Positions 36,334 through 63,271 of a stretch of 64,000 bases of DNA are shown here, piece by piece (position 1 is the stretch's first letter; every line of letters starts with the position of its first letter). The notes beneath the pieces were generated by a model. That model made no database searches, was not told the DNA's origin, and was given only the letters and a program-made list of their open reading frames with translations. This DNA is from Ornithinimicrobium tianjinense. Its GTDB lineage: Bacteria; Actinomycetota; Actinomycetes; Actinomycetales; Dermatophilaceae. The stretch lies in the NCBI RefSeq assembly GCF_014636495.1, contig NZ_BMEM01000001.1, positions 480,195-544,194 on the forward strand, written 5' to 3'. Both the position numbers and the translations under genes were made by a program.

Positions 36334-36391
36334 GAATCGTGGCCTTCCTCTTGACCTGCTCCAGGAGCTTGCCTACGCTTCCCTTATCGCA

Positions 36392-36402
36392 GAAAGCATT
36401 TC
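36392..36402. promoter_or_regulatory. Putative IclR operator before the CoA-transferase operon
   Basis: Palindrome GAAA-GCA-TTTC within a longer, imperfectly symmetric region flanked by ATCG and CGAT. It lies 22 bases before the CoA-transferase ATG and about 60 bases before the divergent IclR start. AT-rich for this genome. The core resembles GAAA/TTTC half-sites seen at IclR-family operators. Confidence 0.5.
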
Positions 36403-36424
36403 CCACGATACAGGAAGATCACTG

Positions 36425-37672
36425 ATGCTCCCACTGGATGGCTTCACAGTCCTGGACCTGACCCGGTTCCTGTCCGGCCCCTACGCGACGATGGTGCTGG
36501 CTGAGCTCGGTGCCGACGTCATCAAGGTGGAGCAGCCGCACACCGGGGATGACTCGCGACGCTTCGAGCCGAAGTTCGGCGGCGAGAGCTACCCGGCTGC
36601 CATGCCTAACCGCAGCAAGCGGAGCATCTCCCTGGATCTGAAGTCGGCCGAGGCGCGAGAGATCTTCCTGACGCTCGTCGAGAGCGCCGACCTGGTGATG
36701 GAGAACTTCCGTCCGGGCGTGACCAAGCGGCTGGGCATCGACTATGACACCGTCAAGGCGATCAAGCCCGACATCCTCTACTGCTCCATCAGCGGTTTCG
36801 GCCAGACCGGTCCGTACCAGCACCGTCCGGGCTTCGACATCATGGCCCAGGGCGTCACCGGGTTCATGCGAATGACCGGCGACGGTGATCGTCCCGCCAA
36901 GGTCGGGATCGCGATCAACGACATTGCCGCCGGCGCCACGGCCATCTACTCGGTGATGGCCGCGCAGATGCTGCGCGAGCGCACCGGACAGGGCCAGTAC
37001 ATGGACATCTCCCTTGTCGAGGCCGGGCTGGCCTGGACCGTGTGGGAGCAGGGCGCCTACTTCGGTGCCGGAGAGGTCCCCGAAGCGACCGGGACCCGGC
37101 ACCGACGGTCCACCCCCTACCAGGCCTACAAGACCGCCGACGGGTTCGTCACCATCGGCGCGGGCAACGACCGGCTGTGGAAGCGGCTGGTGGAAGACGC
37201 GCTGGGGGTCCCGGAGTGGCAGGAAGACCCTCGCTACCTGACGCTGCAGGACCGCATGGCGCACCGTGACGAGCTGCAGGCGGACATCGAGGCGATCACC
37301 CAGACCAAGACCACGCACGAGTGGATCGAGATCATCGACGCCGCAGGCGTGCCGGTCGGGCCGGTGCTGCGCTACGACGAGACGCTGCAGGACGAGCAGG
37401 TCATCGCCCGCGGGATGATCGCCGAGGTCGAGCACCCGATCATCGGCCCGATGAAGACCATCGCCCCGCCGACCAAGTTCAGCAACCTCGACTTCTCGGT
37501 CCGCGGACCGGCGCCGTGGATCGGACAGCACACGGCCGAGGTGCTCCGTGAGGCAGGCGTCCCCGACGACAGGATTGCCGAGCTCTTCGAGCGGGGCGTG
37601 CTCTTCGACGCTCACCCCGAACTGAACGACCCCGTCGGCTCACGCGCAACGGCCGAGGCAGCGAGGAGCTGA
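36425..37672 (+). CDS. Family III CoA-transferase (CaiB/BaiF type)
   Basis: A 415-residue CoA-transferase that moves CoA between two carboxylic acids. It starts MLPLDGFTVLDLTRFLSGPY with AGGAAG upstream. Family landmarks are LGADVIKVEQPHTGDDSRRF, NRSKRSISLDLKSAEAREIF, MENFRPGVTKRLG and CSISGFGQTGPYQHRPGFD. The catalytic aspartate is in KVGIAINDIAAGATAIYSVM, and GQGQYMDISLVEAGLAW follows. First gene of an IclR-controlled operon with a crotonase, thioesterase and Tct transporter, so it likely activates the imported acid. The acid cannot be told from the sequence. Confidence 0.9.
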   Translation: MLPLDGFTVLDLTRFLSGPYATMVLAELGADVIKVEQPHTGDDSRRFEPKFGGESYPAAMPNRSKRSISLDLKSAEAREIFLTLVESADLVMENFRPGVTKRLGIDYDTVKAIKPDILYCSISGFGQTGPYQHRPGFDIMAQGVTGFMRMTGDGDRPAKVGIAINDIAAGATAIYSVMAAQMLRERTGQGQYMDISLVEAGLAWTVWEQGAYFGAGEVPEATGTRHRRSTPYQAYKTADGFVTIGAGNDRLWKRLVEDALGVPEWQEDPRYLTLQDRMAHRDELQADIEAITQTKTTHEWIEIIDAAGVPVGPVLRYDETLQDEQVIARGMIAEVEHPIIGPMKTIAPPTKFSNLDFSVRGPAPWIGQHTAEVLREAGVPDDRIAELFERGVLFDAHPELNDPVGSRATAEAARS

Positions 37673-37675
37673 CCC

Positions 37676-38473
37676 ATGACTGAGCTGACCATGACCGACG
37701 ACCTCACCGTCACCCGTGACGACGCCGTAGCGACACTGACCCTCAACCGGCCGCAGAGCCACAATGCCATCAACATCGGGATGTACAGGGCCCTGCCCGG
37801 TCTGGTGGCCGAGCTCGAAGCCGACGCTGCCGTCAAGGTGGTCGTCCTGCGCGGGGCGGGGGAGCGGTCCTTCGCGTCGGGCGCCGACATCACCGAGTTC
37901 GAGGCCGAGCGCAGCGACGCGGTGAAGGCCAAGAACTACAACGCGAAGGTGGCGGCGGCGGAGCGGGCGCTGGAGGGCATGACGAAGCCCACCATCGCGA
38001 TGATCCACGGCTACTGCATCGGCGGGGGCGCCGGGCTGGCGCTCGCCTGCGACATGCGCTTCGCGGACACCAGGGCCAAGCTCGCCATCACGCCGGCCAA
38101 GCTCGGCCTCGTCTACAGCCTGGAGTCGACCAAGCGAGTCGTGGATCTGGCCGGCCCCTCGCGGGCCAAGTGGATCCTCATGTCGGGCCAGCAGATCCAG
38201 GCCCGGCGGGCCGTGGAGCTCGGCCTGGTCGACGAGGTGGTGGAGCCCGAGGAGCTGGAGGACTACACCTACGACTTCGCGCGCGTGATCACCACGCGTG
38301 CCCAGTTCAGCGTCCGGGCCGGCAAGGAGATGGTCCGCCGGGTTCTCGGCGGTCAGGTCCGCGACGACCAGGAGACGCTCGACCTGCGTAACTCCTCGTT
38401 CGAGACCGAGGACTTCGCCGAGGGCGTGCGCTCCTTCCTGGAGAAGCGGCCGCCTGAGTTCCGGTGGTCGTGA
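37676..38473 (+). CDS. Crotonase-family protein (enoyl-CoA hydratase-like)
   Basis: A 265-residue crotonase fold protein. The oxyanion-hole segments are GERSFASGADITEFEAE and HGYCIGGGAGLALACDMRFA. The two glutamates used by classical enoyl-CoA hydratases appear absent: the first site reads TPAKLGLVYSLEST, where PE would be expected, and the second reads RAKWILMSGQQ. It may therefore be a racemase, hydrolase, decarboxylase or isomerase acting on a CoA ester rather than a simple hydratase. It starts three bases after the CoA-transferase stop and overlaps the thioesterase start in TGATG. Confidence 0.85.
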   Translation: MTELTMTDDLTVTRDDAVATLTLNRPQSHNAINIGMYRALPGLVAELEADAAVKVVVLRGAGERSFASGADITEFEAERSDAVKAKNYNAKVAAAERALEGMTKPTIAMIHGYCIGGGAGLALACDMRFADTRAKLAITPAKLGLVYSLESTKRVVDLAGPSRAKWILMSGQQIQARRAVELGLVDEVVEPEELEDYTYDFARVITTRAQFSVRAGKEMVRRVLGGQVRDDQETLDLRNSSFETEDFAEGVRSFLEKRPPEFRWS

Positions 38474-38925
38474 TGACAGCCACCCTCTGGGACGGCGCCG
38501 TGGCCCGGGCCACCGAGGCGGCCCGGTCCGACAAGCAGGAGTTCGGCGACTTCTTCCTAGCCCGGTTCCTCGGCCTGTCGATCGACTACGACGACGCGGA
38601 GCAGACCTGCACGGTGCACCTGCCCTATGCGCCGCACCTGGGCAACCCCCAGGGGTCTGTGCATGGCGGCGTGCTCGGCACGGTGATGGACATCTCGATG
38701 GGCCACCTGTGCCACCGCTACCTCTCGACCGCCATGACGATCGAGATGCAGCTGCGGTTCTTCCGGCCGCTCACCACCGACGGGATCTGCACCGGCCGGG
38801 TCATCAAGGCCGGCCGGCGGCTCGTCCACCTGGAGTCCAGGCTCACCGACACCCAGGGCAGGCTCACCGCCTTCGCCACCGGGTCCTGGCACCGCCTGGA
38901 TGCCCTGACCACCACGACCCCGTGA
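38473..38925 (+). CDS. Hotdog-fold thioesterase (PaaI type)
   Basis: A 150-residue hotdog thioesterase. The core is HLPYAPHLGNPQGSVHGGVLGTVMDISMGHLC, where the NPQGSVHGG loop carries the usual catalytic region, followed by MTIEMQLRFFRPLTTDGICT. It should release an acid from a CoA ester. The ATG shares its A with the crotonase stop (TGATG), so it is tightly coupled. Paired with a CoA-transferase it may recycle CoA or free a product; substrate unknown. Confidence 0.87.
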   Translation: MTATLWDGAVARATEAARSDKQEFGDFFLARFLGLSIDYDDAEQTCTVHLPYAPHLGNPQGSVHGGVLGTVMDISMGHLCHRYLSTAMTIEMQLRFFRPLTTDGICTGRVIKAGRRLVHLESRLTDTQGRLTAFATGSWHRLDALTTTTP

Positions 38926-38945
38926 CAGCAACGACCAGCACCACC

Positions 38946-38970
38946 CCGGTCCGCCACCGTGACGGACCGG
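38946..38970 (+). terminator. Hairpin between thioesterase and tctC
   Basis: CCGGTCCG (38946-38953) pairs perfectly with CGGACCGG (38963-38970) around a nine-base loop, in the 80-base gap before the transporter genes. There is no T-run after it, so it is more likely a transcript-processing or partial-stop structure than a full terminator, letting receptor mRNA differ in amount from the upstream enzymes. Confidence 0.45.
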
Positions 38971-39005
38971 CCAACCCGGCCGGACCCCCGGCCAAAGGAG
39001 GAAAG

Positions 39006-40001
39006 ATGCGTTCAAAGGTGATCGCAGGACTCGGGAGCGTCGCGCTTCTCGCCGCCCTCACCGCCTGCGGCAACAGCGACGGCGACGGCGGTGGCGGCGG
39101 CGGCGAGAGTGCCGCCGACTACCCCACGGAGGACATGGACTGGACCATCGCCTTCGGCCCCGGTGGCGGCAACGACATCATGGCCCGCACGATGGTCGAG
39201 ATCATCAAGCAGTACGAGCTCTACCCCGAGGACATTCGACTCGAGAACCGCGAGGGCGGCAGCGGCGCGACCGGGTGGGGCTACCTTCTCAACCAGCGCG
39301 GCAGCGGCTACGGCATCTCCACCACGTCCGGCTCCTTCATCACCACCCCGCTGCAGGCCGACACCGGCTGGACCTACAAGGACTTCACCCCCGTCGGCCT
39401 GTTCGCCACCGACGACGCCCTGTTCGTCGTGCCCGGCGACAGCGAGTTCCAGACGTGGGAGGACTGGGTCGAGCACGCAACCGCCCAGGAGAGCGTGGTC
39501 GTCGGCGGCATCAGCACAGTCAACGTCGACTTCATCCTGCACTCCCTGATCGCCGACGCCGCCGGCTACGAGATCGAGTACGTGCCGTTCAACGAGGAGG
39601 GCCAGCTCCAGACGGCGCTGTTCTCCGGCTCGCTGGACGCCATCGTCTCCAACACCGGTTCGATCCTGGGCCAGGTCGAGGCCGAGGAGGTGCGCCCCTT
39701 GCTCTACACCGGGAAGGAGGCACTGCCCGCCCTCCCGGATATCCCTACCGGTGAGGACAAGGGCATCGAGGACCTGCCGGCGATGCCGCGCGGCATGATC
39801 CTGCCGCCCGAGGCTCCTGCAGAGGCCCAGGAGTGGTGGATCAACACCATGAAGGAGGTTGTCGAGACCCCGGAGTGGGACGAGTACATCGAGTCCAACT
39901 ACCTGACCGAGAACGTGCTGTGGGGCGAGGACTTCATGGAGTTCCTGGACGCCACCAACGAGGACTTCCGGACCACCCTGGAGGAGGCCGGAGCGCTGTG
40001 A
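39006..40001 (+). CDS. tctC: TctC-family tripartite tricarboxylate transporter receptor
   Basis: A 331-residue lipoprotein. The signal peptide ends at LAALTACGNSD (lipobox Cys about residue 22), followed by a Gly-rich linker. The binding domain starts WTIAFGPGGGNDIMARTMVE and continues LENREGGSGATGWGYLL, TPVGLFATDDALFVV and SVVVGGISTVNVDFILHSLI, typical of Bug/TctC receptors. They capture carboxylic acids outside the cell for the TctAB channel, usually sodium-driven. A strong AGGAGGAAAG precedes the ATG. The stop overlaps the tctB start (GTGA). Confidence 0.92.
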   Translation: MRSKVIAGLGSVALLAALTACGNSDGDGGGGGGESAADYPTEDMDWTIAFGPGGGNDIMARTMVEIIKQYELYPEDIRLENREGGSGATGWGYLLNQRGSGYGISTTSGSFITTPLQADTGWTYKDFTPVGLFATDDALFVVPGDSEFQTWEDWVEHATAQESVVVGGISTVNVDFILHSLIADAAGYEIEYVPFNEEGQLQTALFSGSLDAIVSNTGSILGQVEAEEVRPLLYTGKEALPALPDIPTGEDKGIEDLPAMPRGMILPPEAPAEAQEWWINTMKEVVETPEWDEYIESNYLTENVLWGEDFMEFLDATNEDFRTTLEEAGAL

Positions 40002-40552
40002 GCGACTCGCCGGCCCGGCCGGAGGTCGCCGCCCCGGCGGCCCCGGCCGGGCACGCGGAGGGACGGCCGTGGGGTCGCGCAGTGTTCTTCGCCGTCCTGC
40101 TCGCCGTCCTGGTCGGCTACACCGTCATGGCCTTCCAGATGGATCGGATCACCGGCGGCGGGCGGATCGGTCCCGGCTTCTTCCCGCAGATCATCGGTTC
40201 CCTCGGCGTGCTCATCGCGGCGGGCGCGCTCGTCAACAGCCTTCGTCCTGGTGAGGCCGCCGTCGAGGACGCCGGCTTCGAGGAGGACGAGGCGGGCGAG
40301 GGTGACCTGGGGCGGCACCCGCTCGCCCTCATCGTCACGATCGCCCTGAGCGGGGTCCTGCTGCTCACCCTCAACAGCCTCGGGGCCATCATCAGCTCGG
40401 CGCTGTTCACCATCGGCCTGCTCTCGTTCCTCAACCGAGGCCGCTGGGTGGCCAACATCCTGGTGGCGGTGCTGGTGCCGATCGCCATGTACCTGCTCTT
40501 CCAGACCGCGCTCAACGCCGGTCTGCCCAGCGGGCTCCTGCCCCGCTTCTAG
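39998..40552 (+). CDS. tctB: TctB-family transporter subunit
   Basis: A 184-residue small membrane subunit with four hydrophobic segments: AVFFAVLLAVLVGYTVMAFQ, GFFPQIIGSLGVLIAAGALV, LALIVTIALSGVLLLTLNSL and VANILVAVLVPIAMYLLFQT. The GGRIGPGFFPQ motif after the first segment is characteristic. The GTG overlaps the receptor stop by four bases, and the TctA gene follows after 31 bases. The acidic stretch GFEEDEAGEGD between segments 2 and 3 is cytoplasmic. Confidence 0.9.
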   Translation: MSDSPARPEVAAPAAPAGHAEGRPWGRAVFFAVLLAVLVGYTVMAFQMDRITGGGRIGPGFFPQIIGSLGVLIAAGALVNSLRPGEAAVEDAGFEEDEAGEGDLGRHPLALIVTIALSGVLLLTLNSLGAIISSALFTIGLLSFLNRGRWVANILVAVLVPIAMYLLFQTALNAGLPSGLLPRF

Positions 40553-40583
40553 CGAAACACGACTGCCCGAGGAGAGCGTCAGC

Positions 40584-42260
40584 GTGGACATCTTCAACGA
40601 CCTGGGGGCGGGTATCGCCGCGGTCCTGACCCTGCAGAACATCCTGCTGCTCGCAGCAGGCGTGACGGTAGGGATGATCGTCGGTGTCATGCCAGGGCTC
40701 GGTCCCTCAGCCGGCCTGGCGATCCTGCTGCCGCTGACGTTCGGGCTGGACCCGACGGGCGCGATCGTCATGCTGGCGGCCGTCTACTACGGGTCGATGT
40801 ACGGCGGCACCATCACCTCGGTCCTGATCAACACCCCAGGAGAGTCAGCCACCGTCGCCAGCACGTTCGACGGCTACCCGCTCGCCCGGAAGGGCCGGGC
40901 CGGACCCGCCCTGGTCATGGCAGCTGTGGCCTCGTTCGTGGCCGGCACGGTCGGCGCCGTGCTCATCAGCTTCTTCGCCCCGCTCACAGCCTCCGTGGCC
41001 AAGACATTCGGGCCGCCGGAGCTGTTCCTCGTGGTGGTGGCCGGGCTGCTCACGCTGATCGTCATCGTCGGCAAGCACCGGATGCTCGGCTTTCTCTCCG
41101 CCCTCATCGGCTTCGCGCTGGCCACCGTGGGCATCGACGTGGGCGTGGGCCAGCAGCGGTACACCTTCGGCTCGACCGAGCTCATCAACGGCATCGACTT
41201 CGTCCCGGTCGCCATCGGGCTCTTCGGCGTGGGCGAGATCCTGCACACGGTGTGGCGCGGCGGCCACCTCGAGAAGATCGCCTACGCCAAGGTCTCGGTG
41301 CGCGACCGCGCCTTCTGGCCGACCCGGCAGGACTACCGCGAGAGCGCCGGCGCCATGGGCCGCGGCTCCCTCCTCGGCTTCTTCGTCGGCACCGCGCCGG
41401 GTGCCGGAGCCACTGTGGCGTCGCTGATGTCCTACAACCTTGAGAAGTCGGTCTCCAAGACGCCGGAGAAGTTCGGCAAGGGCGCGATGGCCGGGCTGGC
41501 CGGCCCGGAGGCGGCCAACAACGGCGCGTCGGCCGGAGCCATGGTGCCGCTGCTCACCCTGGGCATCCCGGGGTCTGGTGCCACCGCCGTGCTGCTTGCA
41601 GGCTTCCTGATGTGGGGGCTGCAGCCCGGGCCGCTGCTGATGGAGCAGAACCCGGAGTTCGCCTGGGGTCTGATCGCCAGCATGTACCTCGGCAACGTCA
41701 TGCTGCTGCTGATCAACGTCTTCATGATCCCCAGCTTCGCGAGCGTCGCGCGCGTCCCGTTCCGGATCCTGGCGCCGGTCATCATCGTGCTGTGCGCCCT
41801 CGGTACGTACACCGTGAACGGCAGCATCATCGAGGTCGGGATCATGCTGACCTGCGGCGTGCTCGGGTTCTTCATGCGCCGTTACGGCATGTCGCCGGCG
41901 GCTCTGGTGATCGCCCTGGTCCTCGGCCCGCTGGCGGAGGAGACGCTGCGCCAGACGATGGTGATCTCCGGCGGTGACATGACGATCTTCCTGCGGCGGA
42001 CCACCTCGATGTGGCTGCTCGTGGCGATCGCCGTGCTGGTGACGCTGCCGCTGCTCAGCCCGTGGATCTCCCGGATCGTGAGGGTAAGGGTCCGCAACGC
42101 AGGGCTGCGCCGGCGCCGCCGGGAGCGGACCGGGAGGGGTCGGCCGGGCCGCGCCGGTACGGTCGGTACGCACCCGCCGGAGCAACCCCATACCTCCCCG
42201 GAGGACACCCAGCACGCGACTGTCGGGGCCGAGCCCCCGCGGCAGAGGGAGGATCTGTGA
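40584..42260 (+). CDS. tctA: TctA-family transporter permease
   Basis: A 558-residue permease with about 12 membrane segments. Signature stretches are GMIVGVMPGLGPSAGLAILL, YYGSMYGGTITSVLINTPGE, FFVGTAPGAGATVASLMSYN and LLTLGIPGSGATAVLLAGFL. The GTG start has GGAGAG upstream. The C-terminal 60 residues are an unusual Arg/Pro-rich cytoplasmic tail (RRRRRERTGRGRPGRAGTVG), longer than in the second copy at 56485. The stop overlaps the oxidoreductase start by four bases. Confidence 0.93.
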   Translation: MDIFNDLGAGIAAVLTLQNILLLAAGVTVGMIVGVMPGLGPSAGLAILLPLTFGLDPTGAIVMLAAVYYGSMYGGTITSVLINTPGESATVASTFDGYPLARKGRAGPALVMAAVASFVAGTVGAVLISFFAPLTASVAKTFGPPELFLVVVAGLLTLIVIVGKHRMLGFLSALIGFALATVGIDVGVGQQRYTFGSTELINGIDFVPVAIGLFGVGEILHTVWRGGHLEKIAYAKVSVRDRAFWPTRQDYRESAGAMGRGSLLGFFVGTAPGAGATVASLMSYNLEKSVSKTPEKFGKGAMAGLAGPEAANNGASAGAMVPLLTLGIPGSGATAVLLAGFLMWGLQPGPLLMEQNPEFAWGLIASMYLGNVMLLLINVFMIPSFASVARVPFRILAPVIIVLCALGTYTVNGSIIEVGIMLTCGVLGFFMRRYGMSPAALVIALVLGPLAEETLRQTMVISGGDMTIFLRRTTSMWLLVAIAVLVTLPLLSPWISRIVRVRVRNAGLRRRRRERTGRGRPGRAGTVGTHPPEQPHTSPEDTQHATVGAEPPRQREDL

Positions 42261-43483
42261 GGGGACGCAGGTATGCGGTGGTCGGCGGGGGCATCGTCGG
42301 CGCTGCCGTCGCACACCGGCTGATCGAGGTCGAGCAGGGGGCCGAGGTGACCGTGCTCGAGAAGGAGTCGGCGCTCGCCCAGCACCAGACCGGCCGCAAC
42401 AGCGGGGTGGTGCACGCCGGGCTCTACTACACGCCCGGCTCGCTGAAGGCCCGGCTCTGCCGCCGGGGCGTGGGCATGCTCCGGGAGTTCTGCGCCGAGC
42501 ACGACGTCGCCTACGACGAGATCGGCAAGGTGCTGGTGGCTCTCGACCACGCCGAGGCCTCCCGGCTCGCCGGGATCGCCGGGCGGGCCGAGGCCAACGG
42601 CGTCCCAGGCGTGCGCCACCTCTCCGCGGCCGAGCTGCGCGAGCTCGAGCCGCACGTCGAGGGGGTCGCCGGGCTGCTGTCGCCGACGACCGCCATCACC
42701 GACTTCCCCGGCGTGGCGCGGCGGCTGGCCGGGCTCGTGGAGCAGGGCGGGGGCCGGGTACGGACCGCCACTGAGGTGACGGACCTGCGGGAGCGCCCCG
42801 GCGGGGTCGTCGTCACGAGCACCTCCGGCGGACGGACCGTCGAGGAGGAGTTCGACCACGTCGTCATCTGCGCCGGGCTCCACGCCGACCGGCTGGCCCG
42901 CAGGGTCGGCGGCTCCGAAGAGCCACGCATCATGCCCTTCCGCGGCGAGTACTACGCGCTGCGGCCGGAGCGGAGGGACCTGGTCACCAGGCTCGTCTAC
43001 CCCGTCCCCGACCCGCGATATCCCTTCCTTGGCGTGCATCTGACCCCCAGGGTCGACGGCGAGGTGCTCATCGGGCCGAACGCCGTGCTGGCGCTGGCCC
43101 GCGAGGGCTACGGGTGGGGCACCATCTCGGCACGAGACCTGGTCGAGACGCTGCGGTGGCCGGGGTTCGCCGGCTTCGCCCGGAAGAACTGGCGGACCGG
43201 CGTGCAGGAGATGGCAGGCTCGCTGAGCCGGCGCCGGTTCATCGCCGCGGCCCAGAAATATGTGCCTGAGCTATCCCCGGACGACGTGGTGGTCGGTCCG
43301 CGCGGCATCCGCGCGCAGGCCATGGACCGCGACGGCAGCCTGGTCGACGACTTCCGCATCGACCGCAGCGAACGGGTGACGGTGCTGCGCAACGCGCCGT
43401 CGCCGGCGGCCACCTCCAGCCTGGCGATCGCGGAGTACCTTGTCGACCAGCTGGTCGGCCCTTCCTCGACGGTCGGGGAGTAG
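42257..43483 (+). CDS. lhgO: FAD-dependent L-2-hydroxyglutarate oxidase-like enzyme
   Basis: A 408-residue FAD oxidoreductase of the DAO/LhgO group. The dinucleotide site is RYAVVGGGIVGAAVAHRLIE at the N-terminus. HQTGRNSGVVHAGLYYTPGS is the highly conserved LhgO signature, and YPVPDPRYPFLGVHLTPRVD and GPRGIRAQAMDRDGSLVDDF also match. LhgO oxidises L-2-hydroxyglutarate to 2-oxoglutarate; here, inside a catabolic operon, it may oxidise another 2-hydroxy acid. The GTG overlaps the TctA stop. Length is normal. Confidence 0.85.
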   Translation: MRGRRYAVVGGGIVGAAVAHRLIEVEQGAEVTVLEKESALAQHQTGRNSGVVHAGLYYTPGSLKARLCRRGVGMLREFCAEHDVAYDEIGKVLVALDHAEASRLAGIAGRAEANGVPGVRHLSAAELRELEPHVEGVAGLLSPTTAITDFPGVARRLAGLVEQGGGRVRTATEVTDLRERPGGVVVTSTSGGRTVEEEFDHVVICAGLHADRLARRVGGSEEPRIMPFRGEYYALRPERRDLVTRLVYPVPDPRYPFLGVHLTPRVDGEVLIGPNAVLALAREGYGWGTISARDLVETLRWPGFAGFARKNWRTGVQEMAGSLSRRRFIAAAQKYVPELSPDDVVVGPRGIRAQAMDRDGSLVDDFRIDRSERVTVLRNAPSPAATSSLAIAEYLVDQLVGPSSTVGE

Positions 43484-43485
43484 GC

Positions 43486-45176: not shown

Positions 45177-45247
45177 CGCAGCATCCCTCACGCCCAGCAC
45201 ACGCCATACCGGCGTCAAGAAGTCCAACGACCTGAGAAGGAGTCCAC

Positions 45248-47388: not shown

Positions 47389-47589
47389 TCGACGCGTCGT
47401 CCCGCCCCATCCCCGGCTGCGACGCGTGGCCGAGCCGGCCATCGAGGGCCGCGTCGTGACCGCGATGGAGGCCCTTGGTCCCGGTTGCTGTCAAGTCCGG
47501 TGAGTCGTCACCGTCCGATGTGACCTGTGACGGGTACGGTCGGTGGACGTGGGCCGATAGTGCCGACCACCGCTGTGCGAAGGACTGGT

Positions 47590-51644: not shown

Positions 51645-51654
51645 CGGCCGTGGC

Positions 51655-53870: not shown

Positions 53871-53947
53871 GGGCATCCTCCAGCAACAAAAGTTCTTCGG
53901 CCGCATCGTTGCGTTCCGGTGTGACCTGGGCTATATTCTCTCGCACA

Positions 53948-53964
53948 CTGTATACCAAGTACAG
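53948..53964. promoter_or_regulatory. Putative GntR (FadR-group) operator
   Basis: Inverted repeat CTGTA-N7-TACAG in an AT-rich patch of the 113-base gap between the divergent CoA-transferase and GntR genes. The symmetry and length suit a FadR-group dimer. It lies 20 bases before the GntR start, so autoregulation and control of the tetronate operon from one site are both possible. Inferred from position and symmetry. Confidence 0.55.
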
Positions 53965-53983
53965 GACCGTTCGGAGGTGACGC

Positions 53984-54736: not shown

Positions 54737-54783
54737 CACGTCCACTTCGACGACATATCACCACCTATCAAGGGAGATAGAAC

Positions 54784-55785: not shown

Positions 55786-55790
55786 CAGCC

Positions 55791-55826
55791 CCGGCGGGCA
55801 CCCCGGACAGCCGGGGTGCCCGCCGG
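55791..55826 (+). terminator. Strong intercistronic hairpin between tctC and tctB
   Basis: Two perfectly complementary 16-base arms (55791-55806 and 55811-55826), all but A/T-free, around the four-base loop ACAG, starting six bases after the tctC stop. No T-run follows. Such structures after a binding-protein gene usually protect the upstream message or stop part of the polymerases, giving more receptor than membrane subunits. Confidence 0.8.
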
Positions 55827-55860
55827 CCGGACCAACCCCTTCAAGGACGGAGTGTGTGAC

Positions 55861-56472
55861 GTGACGGGTGCAGACGAGCCCGCGCTCGCGGAAGAGCGCA
55901 GCGGCCCGTCCCGGGCGGACGTGATCGGGACGGCCATCGTCCTGGTGGTCGGTCTCGTGGTCGCGGTGATGGGCTGGGGCTACGGCTTCCAGGCGGACAA
56001 CGGCCAGGTCGGTCCTGGCTTCCTGCCGGTACTGACCGGGAGCTTCATCGTCGTCGCCTCCGCGCTCGAGCTCCTCCGCATGTTCCTCGCGCCCACCGCC
56101 CCGGTAGAGGGCTCATTTATGGAGGGGGTCGAGAAGGTCGAGGCCCGCGCCAAGGAGGAGCTGGCCAGGGCTATGGCCGAGTCGGGCGGTGGGGAGAAGG
56201 AGGAGCTCGACGTCTTCGGCCGCACCCACCGGCAGCGCGGCCGAGCGGTCCAGCTGGTCTTCGGCGTGATGTTCGTCGCGATTCTGCTCATCCCCCTCCT
56301 GGGGCTGCTGCTGTCCATGACCCTGATGACCTTCGTGATCCTGCGGTTCATCGAGAGCAGGGGGTGGCTCATGTCGGCCGCCGTCAGCGCCGGAGCCTTC
56401 CTCTTCTTCTTCCTCATCTTCCGACTCGCGCTCGGCCTGCCGCTTCCCACCGGCATGCTCGGGCTGGTCTGA
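55861..56472 (+). CDS. tctB: TctB-family transporter subunit (second copy)
   Basis: A 203-residue small subunit with four hydrophobic segments: VIGTAIVLVVGLVVAVMGWG, VGPGFLPVLTGSFIVVASAL, LVFGVMFVAILLIPLLGLLL and MSAAVSAGAFLFFFLIFRLA. The DNGQVGPGFLP motif is the TctB hallmark. A long charged cytoplasmic loop (about residues 88-130, EGVEKVEARAKEELARAMAE) makes it larger than the first copy. The GTG at 55861 has GGAG nine bases upstream. TctA follows after 12 bases. Confidence 0.87.
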   Translation: MTGADEPALAEERSGPSRADVIGTAIVLVVGLVVAVMGWGYGFQADNGQVGPGFLPVLTGSFIVVASALELLRMFLAPTAPVEGSFMEGVEKVEARAKEELARAMAESGGGEKEELDVFGRTHRQRGRAVQLVFGVMFVAILLIPLLGLLLSMTLMTFVILRFIESRGWLMSAAVSAGAFLFFFLIFRLALGLPLPTGMLGLV

Positions 56473-56484
56473 CAAGGCGCGCAC

Positions 56485-57987
56485 ATGCTGGACAACCTCG
56501 TCCTCGGCTTCCAGACAGCCATCACCCCCGAGAACCTGCTCTTCTGCCTCGTCGGCGTGGTCCTGGGGACAGTCATCGGGATGCTTCCCGGGCTGGGCTC
56601 GGCCACTGGTGTCGCCATCCTGCTGCCGGTCACGCTGAGCCTTGACCCTGTCACGGCGTTGATCATGCTCGCGGGCATCTACTACGGCAGCCAGTACGGC
56701 GCCTCGACCAGCGCCATCCTCATCTCCACGCCAGGAGACTCCTCCAGTGTGGTGCTGTCCCTGGACGGCTACCAGATGGCGAGACGGGGCCGGGCGGGAG
56801 CCGCTCTGTCGATCTCGGCGATCGCGTCCTTCATCGCGGCGATCGTGTCGCTGGTCGGACTCATGGCCCTGGCGCAGCCGATCGCCCGGTGGGCCCTGAA
56901 CTTCGGTCCGCCGGAGAACCTCGCCATCATCCTGCTCGGTCTGGCGACGATCGTGTCGTTCGCCGGGGAGAACGTGCTGCGGGGCATCACCATGGCGGCG
57001 CTCGGGCTGGCGGTCTCGATGATCGGCGTCGCCTCCGGCTTCTCCACCGCCAGGTTCACCTTCGGCAGCATCAACCTGCTCAGCGGACTGCAGTTCGTGG
57101 CCGTCATGCTCGGCATCTTCGCCATCGGGGAGGTGCTGAACCAGATCAGGGCGGGGGGTGTGACGCCCATACGGGCCAGGTTCCGCGACCTGCTCATCAC
57201 GCGGACAGAGCTGCGCAGGTCGGTGGCGCCGACGCTGCGGGGCACCGGCCTCGGCTTCATCGTCGGCGTGCTCCCCGGTGCCGGCGCGACCTTAGCCTCC
57301 TTTATGGCCTACGGGGTGGAGAAGCAGGTGAGCCGCTACCGCCACGAGATGGGCAACGGCGCTCCCGAGGGGGTGGCCTCGCCCGAGGCGGCCAACAACG
57401 CGGCCGCCAACGCCAGCTTCATCCCTACGCTGGCGCTCGGTATCCCGGGCAGCGGGACGACCGCGATCCTGCTGGGTGCGTTCATCATGTTCGGCCTTCA
57501 GCCGGGTCCGCTCCTGTTCGCGCAGCAGCCGGACCTGGTCTGGGGGCTCCTCGTCTCGTTCTTCTTCGGCAACCTGATCCTGCTGCTGCTGAACCTGCCG
57601 ATGGCCCCGGTCTTCGCCCAGGTGCTGCGGGTCCCCTACGCCTACCTCTACCCCCTGGTGCTCTTCGTCAGCCTCGTCGGAGCCTTCGCGCTCGGCAACA
57701 ACACCTTCACCGTCTGGGTCGTCTTCTTCGCGGGGCTGCTGGGCTACTTCATGAAGCGGTTCGACTTCCCCGCAGCGCCGTTCGTCCTCGGACTGGTCCT
57801 GGGCCCCCTCCTGGAGCGGGCCCTGGTGCAGACCTCGGCGATGGGGCACGGCAGCCTCCTCATCCTCCTCCAGCGCCCGGTGTCGGCCGTTCTGCTCGTC
57901 GTGGCGCTGCTGGCGCTCTCCCTGCCCCTCATCTCCTCCGTCATCGGGCGCTACCGCCGTCGCCACCCCGCCCGCCAGGACATCTGA
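56485..57987 (+). CDS. tctA: TctA-family transporter permease (second copy)
   Basis: A 500-residue permease with about 12 membrane segments. Signatures are [60 protein letters not shown] and [20 protein letters not shown]. It ends with a short basic tail ([13 protein letters not shown]), unlike the long tail of the first copy. Together with its receptor and TctB it should import a carboxylate for the downstream enzymes, which follow after 19 bases. Confidence 0.93.
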
Positions 57988-58006
57988 CTACTCACAGGAG
58001 AGATCC

Positions 58007-58552
58007 ATGACCCCATCCGCACACCTGGTCTCCTATCGCGGCAAGAGCCCCTCCGTCAGCGCCGATGCATGGCTGGCACCCGGGGTCGTCCTGGTCGGGG
58101 ACGTCCGCGTCGAGGCCGGCGCCAGCATCTGGTTCGGCACCGTCGTGCGCGCCGAGGACGGAGCCGTCGTCATCGAGCAGGACGCCAACATCCAGGACGG
58201 GTGCGTCCTGCACGCCGACCAGGGGCACGTGCTCACCGTGGGGGCCAACACGTCCGTCGGGCACCGGGCCGTGCTGCACGGCTGCACGGTAGGACGTGAC
58301 GCCCTCGTCGGCATGGGTGCGGTCGTGCTCAACGACGCCGTGATCGGCGCCGGCGCGATGTTGGCCGCCGGCGGCGTGGTCCTCGAGGGGACCCACATCC
58401 CGGACGGGGGGCTGGCCGCGGGCGTCCCGGCCAAGGTACGTCGCGAACTGAGCACGGAGGAGCGTGAGCAGGTGCGGCAGAACGGACGCATCTACACCGG
58501 CCTGCGGGACGACTACGCCGCCATCCTTCCCACGACGTCCGAGCAGCGGTGA
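58007..58552 (+). CDS. Hexapeptide-repeat protein, gamma-carbonic anhydrase/PaaY/CaiE-like
   Basis: A 181-residue left-handed beta-helix protein with repeated hexapeptides (VVLVGDVRVEAGASIWFGTV, VIEQDANIQDGCVLHAD, VGANTSVGHRAVLHGCTVGR). The histidines in VLHAD and VGHRAVLHG match the zinc ligands of gamma-carbonic anhydrases. PaaY is a related thioesterase and CaiE a related carnitine-operon protein. Because a CaiB-like and a CaiD-like gene are close, a role with CoA esters is more likely here than CO2 hydration. The stop overlaps the crotonase start (TGATG). Confidence 0.83.
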   Translation: MTPSAHLVSYRGKSPSVSADAWLAPGVVLVGDVRVEAGASIWFGTVVRAEDGAVVIEQDANIQDGCVLHADQGHVLTVGANTSVGHRAVLHGCTVGRDALVGMGAVVLNDAVIGAGAMLAAGGVVLEGTHIPDGGLAAGVPAKVRRELSTEEREQVRQNGRIYTGLRDDYAAILPTTSEQR

Positions 58553-59328
58553 TGGAGGGCCACGACATCCTCGTCGAGAAGCAGGACGGGGTGCTGACGG
58601 TCACCTTCAACCGGGTCCGCCAGCGCAACGCGATGACCTGGGAGATGTACCACGGTCTGTACGACGCCTGCGAGCAGGCTGACGCAGATCCGCAGGTCCG
58701 GGTGATGGTGCTGCGCAGCTCCAGCGAGAAGGCCTTCATCGCCGGGACCGACATCGCCCACTTCCAGTCCTTCGACGGAGGGCAGGACGGGCTCACCTAC
58801 GAGACGAGCATCGGCCGCTGTGTCAACCGGCTCGAGGACGTCGACGTCCCGACGGTCGCGGCGATCCAGGGTTACTGCGTCGGGGGCGGCCTGGCCATCG
58901 CGAGCGTGTGCGACCTGCGCGTCGCCACGCCCTCGGCCCGCTTCGGTGCGCCGATCGCCAGGACGCTGGGCAACTGCCTGTCCATGAACACCTACTCGAT
59001 CCTGCTCAGCCAGGTCGGGCCCTCGGTCGCGCTGGACATGCTCCTGCGCGCCCGCATGGTGACCGGCGAAGAGGCGAAGGCCCTCGGTTACGTGGCCGAG
59101 CTCGTCGAGGACGAGTCGCTGGAGGCCTGCCTCACGGAGGTGACCGACACGCTGCTCGCCCACGCGCCGCTGTCGATGTGGGCGGCGAAGGAAAGTCTGC
59201 GCCGATTCCGCCGTGCCAACGTCCCGTGGGGCGACGACATCGTCCAGCGCGTCTACTCCAGCCGGGACTTCGAGCAAGGGGTGGAGGCCTTCACGAGCAA
59301 GGGGCAGCCCTCCTGGGAGGGCAGATGA
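58552..59328 (+). CDS. Crotonase-family protein (enoyl-CoA hydratase-like)
   Basis: A 258-residue crotonase. Oxyanion-hole parts are SSEKAFIAGTDIAHFQSFDG and QGYCVGGGLAIASVCDLRVA. The first catalytic glutamate position reads GAPIARTLGNCLS and the second reads VALDMLLRARMV (Asp), so the classical hydratase pair is not kept. It resembles CaiD-like and other non-hydratase crotonases. It sits between the CaiE-like protein and a sugar isomerase, overlapping both neighbours by a few bases. GTG 58549 directly before the ATG is an alternative start. Confidence 0.85.
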   Translation: MEGHDILVEKQDGVLTVTFNRVRQRNAMTWEMYHGLYDACEQADADPQVRVMVLRSSSEKAFIAGTDIAHFQSFDGGQDGLTYETSIGRCVNRLEDVDVPTVAAIQGYCVGGGLAIASVCDLRVATPSARFGAPIARTLGNCLSMNTYSILLSQVGPSVALDMLLRARMVTGEEAKALGYVAELVEDESLEACLTEVTDTLLAHAPLSMWAAKESLRRFRRANVPWGDDIVQRVYSSRDFEQGVEAFTSKGQPSWEGR

Positions 59329-60283
59329 CCGAGGTTCCTTCACCCTGGTCGGCGGCTGACTGGCCCATCGGCATGTCCACGCTGCCGCTGTCGAGCAGCT
59401 TCACGGACGGCCATGACGACTCCGCCGCCCTGCGCATGAGTGGCTACGGGACCTGCGCGAGATCGCGGCCCTCGGGTTCTCCCACGTCGAGCTGACCGAC
59501 GCCTGGCTCCCGGTGGCCGACCTGGAGCGCTCCCGACGGGAGGAGCTGCGATGGGCCCTGCAGGAGGCCGGGCTCGGCGTGGTGGCGATGACCGTGTCGC
59601 GCCGCTCCGTCCTCGACCCCGACCTCGGCGAGGTCAACCTGGCCTACTCCCACCGGGCCGTCGACGCCGCCGCCGAGCTCGGCACGGGGGTCGTCTGCCT
59701 CGGGCTCCACCGTCCGCTGACCGAGGCCCAGCGCGCGGCGCACTGGTTCTGGCTGGAGCCTGGCGCGAGCGACCCGCTCGACACGGACACGTTCGAGCGC
59801 GTCGTCACGCGTTTCCGGGAGATCGGCCGGCACTGCGCAGATCTGGGGCTGCAGCTCTCCCTCGAGATCTACGAGGACACCCTGCTCGGCACCGTCGACG
59901 GCGCGCTGCGCCTGCTCGAGGCGATCGGTCTGGACAACGTCGGGCTCAACCCGGACGTGGCCAACCTCGTCCGGCTCCACCGGCCTAAGGAGGGGTCCTG
60001 GTTCGAGGACCTGAGCAGGCTGCTCCCGGTGTCCAACTACTGGCACGTGAAGAACTACCTCGTCGACCACGACCCCGCGACAGGAGCCTGGTCCAGCGCG
60101 CCGACCACCCTCGAGCTGGGCGTGCTCAACTACCGGGCGCTCCTGCAGGTCGCCCTCGACCACGGCTTCGCCGGCCCGTTGTGCTGCGAGCACTACGGCG
60201 GGGACGCGCTGGGCGTCGGGGCGACGAACCTGGCCTACCTGCGGCGCACCCTGTCCACGAAGATCAGAGAGGTGATCGCATGA
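59325..60283 (+). pseudogene. Sugar phosphate isomerase/epimerase, split by a frameshift
   Basis: The ATG at 59325 overlaps the crotonase stop (ATGA) and gives MTEVPSPWSAADWPIGMSTL, but this frame ends at 59495 in nonsense (SGYGTCARSRPSG). The next frame carries the rest: EWLRDLREIAALGFSHVELT, LGTGVVCLGLHRPL, LQLSLEIYEDTLLGTVDGAL, VGLNPDVANLVRLH and CCEHYGGDALG, a TIM barrel of the AP-endonuclease-2-like isomerases. Adding one C to the run at 59428-59430 joins them as SAAPAHEWLRDLREIA. It may correspond to EryC-like tetrulose phosphate racemases, given the downstream isomerases. A sequencing undercall is likely, because the stop still overlaps the kinase start correctly. Confidence 0.8.
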
Positions 60284-62010
60284 CCTGGCTGCTGAACGAC
60301 CCGGCGGACTTCGCGCGGGAGGCGCTCGAGGGCTTCTGCGCCGCGCATCCGGAGTACGTCCAGGCCGTCCGGGGAGGAGTCCTTCGGGCCACCGCGAGCC
60401 CGGAGGGCGAGGTGGCTCTCGTGGTCGGGGGCGGGTCCGGGCACTATCCCGCCTTCGCCGGCTGGGTGGGTCCTGGTATGGCGCACGCCGCCGTGTGCGG
60501 CAACCTCTTCGCTTCACCGTCGGCCTCCCAGGCCCACTCCGTGGTCTCGTCCGTCGACAACGGCGGCGGCGTCGTCCTGGCGTTCGGCAACTATGCCGGA
60601 GACGTGCTCCACTTCGGCCAGGCCGCGGAGCGGCTGCGGGCCGAGGGCGTCGACGTCCGGGTGGTCACCGTGTCGGACGATGTGGCGTCGAACACTCCCG
60701 ACAAGCACCGCGACAGACGGGGCATCGCCGGCGACCTGCCGGTCGTCAAGACCATGGGCGCCGCCATCGCCCGCGGCGCGGACCTCGACGAGGTCGAGCG
60801 GCTGGGCTGGAAGGCCAACGACGCGACGCGGACCCTGGGTGTGGCCTTCGACGGGTGCACCCTGCCGGGACAGGACGCCCCGCTGTTCTCGCTGCGGGAG
60901 CGCCGCATGGGCGTCGGCCTGGGGATCCACGGCGAGCCCGGGGTCCGTGAGGAACCGCTGGCCAGCGCGGCCGAGGTGGCCGACCTCCTCGTGGACGGCG
61001 TCCTCGCCGAGGAGCCTTCGCGAGGAGCCGGTTACGCGGGGCGGGCCGCGGTCATCCTCAACGGGCTGGGCACGGTCAAGTACGAGGAGCTCTTCGTCGT
61101 CTACCGCCGCGTGGCGCAACGTCTCCAGGACGCCGGCATCACGCCGGTGCAGCCTGAGGTCGGCGAACTGGTCACGAGCCTGGACATGGCCGGGCTGTCG
61201 CTGACCCTCGTCTACCTCGACGACGAGCTGGAGAGCCTGTGGGTCGCTCCGGCCGACACCCCGGCCTTCCGCCGGGGCGAGGTCCGCCCGTCAGCTCCGA
61301 GGCGACCCCCGTTGGTCGAGGAGGAGGGCGGCCAGGAGCCGGTGCCGCCCTCGTCCGAGGCGTCCCGCCGTGCCGCGCGCACGCTGCTCGGGCACCTCGA
61401 GGCGGTGGCCGAGAGCGCGAAGGGGCACGAGTCTCACTTCGCCACCCTCGACTCCGTCGCCGGGGATGGGGACCACGGCCAGGGGATGTCATTCGGGTCC
61501 AAGGCGGCCCACGAGGCCGCCCGCGCGGCCGTGGCCGAAGGCGCCGGCGCCCGCACCACCCTGGTGCGCGCGGGCGCGGCATGGGCGGATGCGGCCGGCG
61601 GGACCTCGGGCGCGCTCTGGGGCGCCCTGCTGACGGCGGCGGGCGGCGCGCTCTCCGACGAGTCTGACGAGACCACCAAGGAGGACGTCATACGGGCCGC
61701 GGAGGCCGGTGGTCAGGCGGTCCTGCGTCTGGGCGGTGCAGCTGTCGGGGACAAGACGATGGTGGATGCGCTGGTGCCCTTCCTCCGCACGCTGCGGTCC
61801 GAGGCCAGTGGTGGTGCTGACGAAGCCTGGCGCGCAGCGGCGACGCACGCCCACGAGGCAGCGGAGAGCACGGCCGACCTGGTCGCGCGCCGGGGCAGGT
61901 CACGTGTCCTGGGAGAGCGCAGCCTGGGTACGCCCGACCCGGGCGCCATTTCGTTCGCAGTACTCATGAGCGCGGTCGCCGAGCGGCTGGGCAGGGAGGA
62001 GACATCATGA
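60280..62010 (+). CDS. DhaK-DhaL fused kinase, probably an erythrulose kinase
   Basis: A 576-residue ATP-dependent dihydroxyacetone kinase-type enzyme. The DhaK part holds [34 protein letters not shown] and the substrate-binding histidine in [11 protein letters not shown]. The DhaL part has [20 protein letters not shown] and ALVPFLRTL. LerK and DerK kinases for L- and D-erythrulose in Mycobacterium belong to this family. The following RpiB-like and TIM-like genes match the DerI and LerI partners of that route. The ATG overlaps the isomerase stop and the stop overlaps the next ATG, both by four bases. Dihydroxyacetone itself is the alternative substrate. Confidence 0.87.
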
Positions 62011-62495
62011 ACCTTCGTATCGCCGTGGGCGGGGACAGCGCCGGGGTTGGCTACAAGGACGCGCTCGCCGAGGACCTCCGCCGGGACGCGCGCGTCTCCG
62101 ACGTCGTCGACGTCGGCATCGCCGAGGGAGACGACGTGGACTACCCCCATGTCGCGGTGCGTGCGGCTCGACTCGTGGCCTCCGGCGAGGTCGACCGGGC
62201 CCTCCTGGTGTGCGGCACCGGCCTGGGCGTCGCGATCTCGGCCAACAAGGTGACCGGCGTGCGCGCCGTCACCGCGCACGACTCCTACTCCGTGGAGCGC
62301 TCGGTGCTGTCGAACAACGCCCAGGTGCTGTGCCTCGGTCAGCGGGTCATCGGGCTGGAGCTCGCGCGTCGGCTGGTGCGGGAGTGGCTCGGCTACGAGT
62401 TCGACCCGACCTCCGCCTCGGCACCCAAGGTGGCGGCGATCGACAACTACGACGAGGGTTTCGAACCGGACCGTACGGGGACAGCCTGCTCATGA
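62007..62495 (+). CDS. RpiB/LacAB-family isomerase (DerI-like)
   Basis: A 162-residue RpiB fold isomerase: [40 protein letters not shown] and the anion-hole motif [20 protein letters not shown]. The usual catalytic cysteine is present in VCGTG and the [20 protein letters not shown] stretch is complete. In tetrulose catabolism, DerI/EryI converts D-erythrulose 4-phosphate to D-erythrose 4-phosphate. Position between the kinase and the TIM-like gene supports this over ribose-5-phosphate isomerase. Both neighbours overlap by four bases. Confidence 0.87.
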
Positions 62496-63271
62496 CCATC
62501 TGGGTGGGGACGTCGTGGAAGATGACGAAGACACTCTCCGAGGCGGAGGACTTCGCGCAGGGGCTCGCAGCACGCCGGCGCGAGACCGGCTGGCCGGGCG
62601 TGCAGGCCTTCGTCATCCCCTCCTTCACGTCTCTCCACCTCGTGGCCGGCGTCCTGGAGGGGAGCGGCGTCCTCGTCGGTGCCCAGAACGCACATTGGGA
62701 GGACGACGGTGCGTGGACCGGTGAGGTCTCCGTCCCGCAGGTAGCCGACGCGGGAGCGGTCCTGGTCGAGATCGGCCACTCTGAGAGACGCATGCACTTC
62801 GCCGAGACCGACGACACCGTGCGAATGAAGGTGGCTGCCACGCTGCGCCACGGCCTGACGCCGCTCGTCTGTGTGGGGGAGCCGGAGGAGGTGCTCCGGG
62901 AGGGGCGCAGCGCCGACTTCGTCAGCGCGCAGCTCGAGGCCGCCCTCCAGGGCGCGGTGGACAGTCCGGACGACGCCACGGTCCTGGTCGCCTACGAGCC
63001 GGTCTGGGCGATCGGAGAGCATGGACGCCCCGCACGGCCGGAGGAGATCAGCGGCGTGTTGGGGCTCCTGCACTCCCGCTTCGGAGACCGCGTCTCGGGC
63101 TTCCTCTACGGTGGCTCGGTCGCCGAGGACACCGTCGCGCGCACGCTGGAGGTTCCGCACGTCGACGGGGTGTTCGTGGGTCGGTCGGCGTGGGCGCTGC
63201 CGGGTTTCCTCGGGATCCTGGATACCGCCGCCTCCTCAGCGCCGCACGCGCGTCGCCCTCGACTACCGTGA
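62492..63271 (+). CDS. Triosephosphate isomerase-like protein (LerI/EryH-like)
   Basis: A 259-residue TIM homologue. The catalytic lysine is in [11 protein letters not shown], where classical TIM has GNWKM, so the asparagine is Ser. The histidine is in [10 protein letters not shown] and the glutamate in [22 protein letters not shown] closes the phosphate site. The Asn-to-Ser change is what I expect of the LerI/EryH group, which interconverts L-erythrulose 1-phosphate and D-erythrulose 4-phosphate. The housekeeping tpiA would lie with gap and pgk, not here. The ATG overlaps the RpiB-like stop by four bases. Confidence 0.87.

Follow-up and report, generated by a model that had tools for sequence, protein, structure and literature searches.

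A stretch of 64,000 nucleotides from Ornithinimicrobium tianjinense (contig NZ_BMEM01000001.1, positions 480,195 to 544,194), referred to here as the window, contains a catabolic region that we read as two systems: an operon for one acid (35473-47388, the left half) and a composite acid-sugar cluster (47527-63271, the right half). In the right half an acid sugar, probably with five carbons or with a branched skeleton of six, would be converted to L-erythrulose and on to erythrose 4-phosphate. We assign this reading a probability of roughly 0.6. The genes of the right half, among them those for a PdxA-family dehydrogenase, a Tct importer and a set of tetrulose enzymes, are genuinely associated, and together they look like an undescribed route present in several bacterial groups. 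No description of the gene combination was found in the open-licence literature searched.

Genes between 35.5 and 63.3 kb were called from codon-position GC together with Pfam and NCBIfam scans, and the start sites of CoA-transferase 2, TctC-1 and OtnK were set by eye. The gene density far exceeds chance expectation, as judged by the codon-position GC pattern and by Pfam matches over the gathering score. The right half comprises the following features:

47527-48909, plus strand: DRL-family (DXR-like, homoserine-dehydrogenase-related) oxidoreductase, proposed tetronate dehydrogenase (PF21135, 86 bits, cut-off 27)
48899-49714, minus strand: hydroxypyruvate isomerase/OtnI-like TIM barrel (TIGR03234, 214 of 353 bits; NF043033, 146 of 325 bits)
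49711-50385, minus strand: class II aldolase family, OtnC-like decarboxylase (PF00596, 146 bits; family level only)
50382-51644, minus strand: 3-oxo-tetronate kinase OtnK, DUF1537 (NF043035, 451 bits, cut-off 350)
51655-52668, minus strand: PdxA-family dehydrogenase, E[LM]/T/I subfamily by its substrate-site residues (PF04166, 260 bits)
52665-53906, minus strand: family III CoA-transferase 3 (PF02515, 440 bits; 76% identity in genome G013)
53984-54736, plus strand: GntR/FCD regulator of the CoA module (64% in G013, 56-59% in Brevibacterium)
54784-57987, plus strand: TctC-TctB-TctA 2 importer (PF03401, PF07331, PF01970; trees)
58007-58552, plus strand: gamma-carbonic-anhydrase/PaaY/CaiE-like protein (NF050158, 154 of 250 bits)
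58549-59328, plus strand: crotonase 2, PRK06144 subfamily, with PIARTLGNCLS and no E144 (NF004796, 347 bits, cut-off 272)
59325-60283, plus strand: AP_endonuc_2 TIM barrel, 5tnv-like, proposed 3-oxo-acid decarboxylase, broken or misassembled here
60280-62010, plus strand: DhaK-DhaL kinase (DhaKL), proposed L-erythrulose kinase (NF011049, 732 bits, cut-off 492)
62007-62495, plus strand: RpiB family, proposed D-erythrulose-4-phosphate isomerase (PF02502, 148 bits)
62492-63271, plus strand: TIM family, proposed L-erythrulose-1-phosphate isomerase (PF00121, 209 bits)

Directly after the TIM gene, a phosphofructokinase-like gene recognized by eye (63335-64000) runs off the window.

An earlier note on this DNA, made from the letters and their open reading frames, had listed most of these genes, and the list holds: the genes are present and the Pfam and NCBIfam scans agree with nearly all of the families it named. 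Two TctCBA sets were found, as were three family III CoA-transferases (PF02515 and the GxDxxxQ motif in all three, its Asp being presumably the catalytic residue of the family), two crotonases that lack the canonical pair of glutamates, a 4HBT thioesterase and a protein resembling gamma-carbonic anhydrases and CaiE. PdxA, the DUF1537 kinase, the class II aldolase and the Hyi/OtnI-like protein are all present at family level, and so is the tetrulose set of DhaKL, RpiB, TIM and the AP_endonuc_2 protein. Absent from that list were the DRL-family dehydrogenase and, in the left half, the LhgO, DHDPS, SDR and FAH genes. The description of a complete tetronate set has to be given up: the OtnI-like protein stays below its cut-off and an LtnD-type dehydrogenase was not found in the genome.

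The linkage of the right half was examined in other genomes. A collection of 84,980 genomes was scanned for PdxA with two peptide patterns, the best 80 of the loci listed were kept (32 actinobacterial, 48 other), and partner genes were tallied by tblastn at >60 bits and >30% identity. The 32 actinobacterial loci carry a Tct-2-like TctA in 25 cases, AP_endonuc_2 in 20, DhaKL and TIM in 18 each and RpiB in 16, with RpiB and TIM mostly adjoining DhaKL; 18 of the 32 have two or more of the four genes of the tetrulose set. The earlier proposal of a tie between an imported acid, a four-carbon sugar and erythrose 4-phosphate is borne out to this extent, as PdxA, Tct and tetrulose genes travel together in other genomes. 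At the 48 other loci AP_endonuc_2, DhaKL, TIM, RpiB and CoA-transferase 3 were each found in none; TctA occurs in 19, and in 18 of these it is closer to Tct-1.

When 58 genomes, including the organism's own, were searched with the window PdxA, a single close relative was returned, from the congener G013 (68% identity), besides nine at 32-37%. The G013 gene belongs to a cluster of ~18 kb that holds the same components in shuffled order: CoA-transferase 3 (76%), crotonase 2 (52%), the Tct-2 importer (TctA 83%, TctB 51%, TctC 71%), the GntR regulator (64%), PdxA, the tetrulose enzymes (AP_endonuc_2 50%, TIM 36%, RpiB 68%, DhaKL 54%), DRL (50%), OtnK (46%) and OtnC (48%), together with a sugar-lactonase-like amidohydrolase and a DeoR regulator. 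In the window, the minus-strand run of CoA-transferase 3, pdxA, OtnK and the OtnC-like and OtnI-like genes is closely packed, with four-base overlaps at 52665-52668, 50382-50385 and 49711-49714; a gap of ~10 bases separates pdxA from the probable start of OtnK (51644). The first of these overlaps, between CoA-transferase 3 and pdxA, had been taken to place the CoA-transferase in the pdxA operon. The overlap itself is confirmed; it is kept neither in G013, where the CoA-transferase adjoins crotonase 2 at ~12 kb from pdxA, nor in Brevibacterium, and it was rejected as evidence of a fixed CaiB-PdxA pair. CoA-transferase 3, paired with its crotonase, accompanies PdxA in 5 of the 32 actinobacterial loci, all of them from Brevibacterium, where tctC and tctB of the CoA-linked importer flank pdxA. 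All four tetrulose genes occur in three of these five loci, AP_endonuc_2 alone in one, and none in one within the stretch examined.

Plasmids and replicons of proteobacteria carry related sets. A plasmid of Paracoccus sp. TOH has the order OtnC-OtnK-DRL-TctA-TctB-TctC-PdxA-DhaKL-AP_endonuc_2, divergent from GntR, and a plasmid of P. liaowanqingii has the same set minus OtnK and OtnC. PdxA-TctCBA-IlvD-DRL is found on a Roseomonas plasmid, while Pararhizobium, Shinella, S. meliloti and Ensifer share GntR|PdxA-Tct-AP_endonuc_2-DhaKL, in S. meliloti as a compact form of the cluster on pSymB. The alphaproteobacterial clusters lack adjacent RpiB and TIM, so these sets would also fit the conversion of a C4 acid to dihydroxyacetone. 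One could accordingly propose that PdxA acts on an unphosphorylated tetronate, that DhaKL is an ordinary dihydroxyacetone kinase and that DRL serves another tetronate isomer. OtnK, OtnC and DRL do lie beside PdxA in the window, G013 and Paracoccus, and at a Polaromonas locus (L103), the only one of the 48 other loci with OtnK and OtnC, PdxA occurs with OtnK-, OtnC- and OtnI-like genes. Yet RpiB and TIM are present at 16 and 18 of the 32 actinobacterial loci, where RpiB would be needless for dihydroxyacetone, and several proteobacterial PdxA loci contain DHDPS and aldehyde dehydrogenase genes, as pentonate routes do. We consider this explanation unlikely.

By its substrate-site residues, the window PdxA does not look like the D-threonate enzyme. 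In E. coli PdxA we take H136, T137, K274, N283 and R292 to be the substrate and phosphate residues; in an alignment with that protein, the window PdxA has E134, L135, K272, T281 and I290 at these sites and keeps the three metal His along with the Lys of K274. The D-threonate 4-phosphate dehydrogenases 6e85 and 2hi1 retain N and R in the alignment. Among 91 sequences in all, E[LM]..K..[TS]..[ILV] is found in 82 of 82 close members (the window, G013 and the 80 loci), a count that is biased towards the window's type because AGMHEED, one of the two search peptides, stops immediately ahead of the first signature column and the loci retained were the 80 best ones; HT..K..[NS]R is found in all nine distant relatives from related genomes. 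Plasmid relatives collected by tblastn, for which the AGMHEED pattern was not used, lack HT and [NS]R in 11 of 11 cases, in a set of only 11 sequences. Judged by these residues, the window PdxA belongs to a distinct subfamily with a rebuilt substrate site. The label PdxA2 in the earlier note is not supported, as the substrate-site residues of D-threonate PdxA2 are absent, and this assignment was rejected; the D-threonate kinase partner test (NF047819) gave 145 bits against a cut-off of 450. A terephthalate-type PdxA was not adopted either, the match to 4aty amounting to just 94 bits. In proteobacteria the subfamily is surrounded by varying mixes of LysR, a rhamnonate-dehydratase-like enolase, a fuconolactonase-like amidohydrolase, DHDPS and aldehyde dehydrogenase, with MFS, TRAP or Tct carriers. 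These neighbouring enzymes point to unphosphorylated aldonates as the substrates of the subfamily. All ten annotated plasmid records examined that have a member name it as the vitamin B6 enzyme PdxA.

The route that we favour for the right half can be outlined from these families. What is observed is the gene content, the families, their co-location and the residue signatures; the reactions, the substrate and the part of the CoA step are inferred. TctABC-2 would import the acid sugar. The PdxA-subfamily enzyme would then oxidize its 3-hydroxyl with loss of CO2, which from a pentonate would yield erythrulose by analogy with PdxA chemistry, or the AP_endonuc_2 TIM barrel would carry out the decarboxylation to L-erythrulose. 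The TIM barrel, a usual neighbour of PdxA in actinobacteria that also occurs with an LtnD-like dehydrogenase, could be a 3-oxo-acid decarboxylase. DhaKL would phosphorylate L-erythrulose, and the TIM and RpiB homologues would lead to D-erythrose 4-phosphate. The conversion of L-erythrulose to erythrose 4-phosphate by LerK, LerI and DerI is described in PMC10733421. The window operon resembles that system in bringing together a DhaK-type kinase with TIM and RpiB homologues; it differs in that no scanned window protein passes a tetritol dehydrogenase cut-off and in that the set adjoins TctABC and a PdxA-family enzyme. In the work of Carter et al. 2018, D-apionate reportedly passes through 3-oxo-isoapionate to L-erythrulose, by an oxidoisomerase and a xylose-isomerase-like TIM-barrel decarboxylase that are said to be followed by erythrulose kinase and isomerases. 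The window has a comparable array of a TIM-barrel candidate decarboxylase, a proposed erythrulose kinase and isomerases, but its kinase falls short of the OiaK cut-off (88 of 700 bits) and a PdxA-family dehydrogenase takes the place of the oxidoisomerase. A pure D-apionate route was considered and not adopted.

The AP_endonuc_2 gene of the window looks broken, either as a pseudogene or through an assembly error. In G013 the protein is intact, with 314 residues; the match of the window gene to it begins at 59441 with residue 37, ahead of the first start codon of the frame (59513), and nothing in the window significantly matches residues 1-36. A possible beginning in another frame (59325-59520 region) was noticed by eye only. 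The barrel has no NCBIfam match. A plasmid of Streptomyces sp. NBC_01445 (L159) joins AP_endonuc_2-DhaKL-RpiB to two genes that, by eye, resemble an LtnD-like dehydrogenase and a GntP-type carrier and that replace PdxA and Tct.

Several observations weigh against the route to erythrose 4-phosphate and have to be set beside it. Since AP_endonuc_2 is apparently broken, the pathway may no longer work in this strain. Ten of the 32 actinobacterial PdxA loci lack all four tetrulose genes within the stretch examined; four of these ten have a Tct-2-like TctA, and two of the stretches are <20 kb. OtnK, OtnC and DRL were found beside PdxA in 0 of the 32. To these come the absence of adjacent RpiB and TIM in alphaproteobacteria and the limits of the two signature counts, all given above. 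The CoA module, moreover, is found apart from PdxA: among nine other genomes with CoA-transferase 3 (E ≤ 1e-140; five in the genus and at least four in the class sample), G013 alone has this PdxA in the stretch, and in the congener G022 the importer TctABC-2 (TctC 80%), the CaiE-like protein, crotonase 2, CoA-transferase 3 and GntR stand alone. In the class-wide search, as in a phylum-wide DRL search, the top four candidates were scored per genome and the counts are lower bounds.

These last observations bear on another explanation, in which the right half would consist of three neighbouring operons (CoA, PdxA/tetrulose and DRL/OtnK/OtnC) for different substrates, brought together in a catabolic hot spot. 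Each module can indeed be found by itself: the CoA module in G022, PdxA joined by two or more tetrulose genes but not by CoA-transferase 3 at 15 of the 32 actinobacterial loci, and DRL-OtnK-OtnC in genome G397, Comamonas and a Klebsiella plasmid. The same modules are, however, rejoined in other orders in G013 and in Brevibacterium, with its pdxA inside the importer genes, and a single run in Paracoccus holds PdxA, DRL, OtnK and OtnC. The trees add to this. The importers of the seven loci that combine CoA-transferase 3 with PdxA form one clade with that of G022 (TctC 100/99, TctA 84/85), nested inside the PdxA-linked importers, whereas the PdxA proteins of the seven form no single clade; those of Brevibacterium stand apart, that of G013 groups with Brachybacterium-type PdxA (98/97), and the position of the window PdxA is weakly supported. 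A single branch (67/97, recovered in 99% of bootstrap trees) sets CoA-transferase 3 of the PdxA-linked loci apart from all others; crotonase 2 shows no such split. Because the link of the CoA module to PdxA is seen only in the window's genus and in Brevibacterium, the combined loci represent two lineages and their independence is limited. We regard the three-operon explanation as a serious possibility, if somewhat improbable.

The role of the CoA module is the least certain part of the composite acid-sugar route. CoA-transferase 3, crotonase 2 and the CaiE-like protein may be an accessory module on the same importer, which would interconvert a related hydroxy acid as its CoA ester, or hydrate or decarboxylate it, for entry into the right-half route. 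Taking E144 and E164 as the canonical enoyl-CoA hydratase glutamate pair, crotonase 2 has A and D at these positions. All 15 crotonase-2-type sequences lack E144, with Glu at position 164 in three and Asp in 12, and a PIARTLGNCLS-like stretch is common to crotonase 2 and its 14 relatives; without E144, a canonical hydratase mechanism is unlikely. The clustering of CoA-transferase III, crotonase and hexapeptide protein genes recalls the carnitine CaiB/CaiD/CaiE system, from which the window differs in its scores (CoA-transferase 3, 122 of 413 against L-carnitine CoA-transferase; CaiE, 118 of 305), in the missing E144 and in its TctABC importer. With scores so far below the cut-offs, a carnitine-type assignment was not adopted. 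On plasmids, CoA-transferase 3 gave one match at 1e-100, 48% identical. Pairs of CoA-transferase 3 and crotonase 2 lie near other genes in G002, G014, G025 and G646, and among other genes without this PdxA at loci L118, L119, L120, L121 and L124. Neighbours in G002 include a D-2-hydroxyacid dehydrogenase resembling YdiJ, an aminotransferase resembling BhcA and a carrier of the GntP type, each scoring below its equivalog cut-off, and the YdiJ-like and BhcA-like neighbours at L118 hint at a hydroxy-acid or glyoxylate-type role of the pair.

The third component of the right half is a putative tetronate branch. The known pathway for L-threonate and D-erythronate consists of LtnD, OtnI, OtnK and OtnC, according to PMC12540250. 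The window shares with it an OtnK over the equivalog cut-off, an OtnC-family aldolase and an OtnI-like protein, and differs in having a DRL-family dehydrogenase beside OtnK-OtnC in place of an LtnD-family protein. PF14833 gave no match at E ≤ 0.001 in the 3.3-Mb genome, against matches in 9 of 14 control genomes, and therefore no L-threonate dehydrogenase of the LtnD type was found. DRL is near OtnK-OtnC in G013, G397, Paracoccus TOH, Comamonas and the Klebsiella plasmid, and in G397, Comamonas and Klebsiella this occurs without PdxA. The phylum-wide DRL search at 1e-40 returned at least one other genome of 395. Neither the G013 cluster nor the G397 stretch yielded an OtnI. The plasmid in question, pRHB39-C10_3 of Klebsiella pneumoniae (L155), is typed as conjugative and has the order OtnK-OtnC-DeoR-GntP-DRL, with DRL annotated as homoserine dehydrogenase. 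DRL might replace LtnD, so that DRL, OtnK and OtnC would take a tetronate via 3-oxo-tetronate 4-phosphate to dihydroxyacetone phosphate. The window DRL has the same Pfam catalytic domain as PDB entries 3upl and 3upy (phmmer E = 8.7e-25), which we take to be Brucella DRL (DXR-II), but DRL is linked to OtnK-OtnC in the loci examined here. Related DLO families are described in PMC3847144; the term 'catabol' is absent from its text.

The left half is an autonomous operon for another acid, separate from the right half. The following features were delineated:

35473-47388, strand unspecified: left operon with IclR regulator (gene order kept in 7 of 12 relatives)
36425-37672, plus strand: family III CoA-transferase 1 (PF02515, 426 bits; Asp in GFDIMAQ)
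38464-38925: 4HBT thioesterase (Pfam-scan match)
42257-43483, plus strand: L-2-hydroxyglutarate oxidase family, LhgO-like (NF008726, 527 bits, cut-off 299)
46198-47388 (start approximate), plus strand: family III CoA-transferase 2 (family scan)

The order is CoA-transferase 1, crotonase 1, 4HBT thioesterase, TctC-B-A 1, LhgO-like DAO, DHDPS-family, SDR, FAH-family and CoA-transferase 2, and crotonase 1 has A at the E144 and W at the E164 position, so that both glutamates are missing. With the DHDPS-family protein as the query, relatives were found in at least 10 other genomes among 393 of the class (top five candidates scored in each) and in 3 of 30 of the genus, and the neighbourhoods were compared in 12 of these 13. 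The order from CoA-transferase 1 to FAH is kept in seven (L140, L142, L143, L144, L145, L147 and L151), with LhgO missing in L147; six of the seven have the IclR gene and five CoA-transferase 2. Of the remaining five, L146, L148 and L150 keep parts, and two, including the congener G022, have the DHDPS gene alone.

The earlier note had joined the whole interval of 36.3-63.3 kb into a single route that would import one acid, process it as a CoA ester and split it. Physical proximity and the overlap of CoA-transferase 3 with pdxA speak for it, as does a relative of CoA-transferase 2 (63%) inside a CoA-transferase-3 module of G572. Against it, the left half forms a separate operon in 7 of 12 relatives and in G013 lies at 1.71 Mb, ~1.4 Mb from the PdxA cluster at 3.11 Mb. 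CoA-transferases 1 and 2, crotonase 1, the thioesterase, LhgO and FAH were sought at the 32 actinobacterial PdxA loci and found at none. As the left half is conserved as an operon on its own, it falls outside the PdxA route, and a single pathway for the whole interval was rejected; in probability terms we hold the one-route idea to be very improbable indeed. Conservation of separate sub-operons had been named in advance as evidence against that idea, and for the left half this is what the comparison of gene order revealed. In the right half the grouping of PdxA, Tct and tetrulose genes recurs elsewhere, and there the link of an imported acid to a tetrulose is supported, passage of the substrate itself as a CoA ester being hypothetical.

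A more specific and quite doubtful proposal makes the right half an island for acids that arise when plant vitamin C breaks down. As products of 2,3-diketogulonate, PMC6225978 and PMC5398285 describe a branched dianion, for which the proposed identity is 2-carboxy-L-threo-pentonate, together with its lactones. TctABC would import these compounds and the amidohydrolase of several clusters would open the lactones. Two decarboxylations, the first by the PdxA-subfamily enzyme and the next by the TIM barrel, would then lead to L-erythrulose and on to erythrose 4-phosphate. L-threonate would be routed via DRL, OtnK and OtnC to dihydroxyacetone phosphate, and an oxalate-type or other acid part might fall to the CoA-transferase module. 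The proposal would explain together the di/tricarboxylate importer, the lactonase, the two decarboxylation-type enzymes, the L-configured tetrulose enzymes and the tetronate branch.

The PdxA subfamily is spread over actinobacteria and proteobacteria, and its neighbours tell of acid-sugar breakdown, with a tetrulose product in actinobacteria. If the route from an acid sugar via L-erythrulose is correct, it would constitute a new entry to erythrose 4-phosphate, and it would hint that DRL-family oxidoreductases work in the catabolism of tetronates. The pathway is directly testable in tractable hosts such as Sinorhizobium meliloti, which carries the compact form on pSymB.

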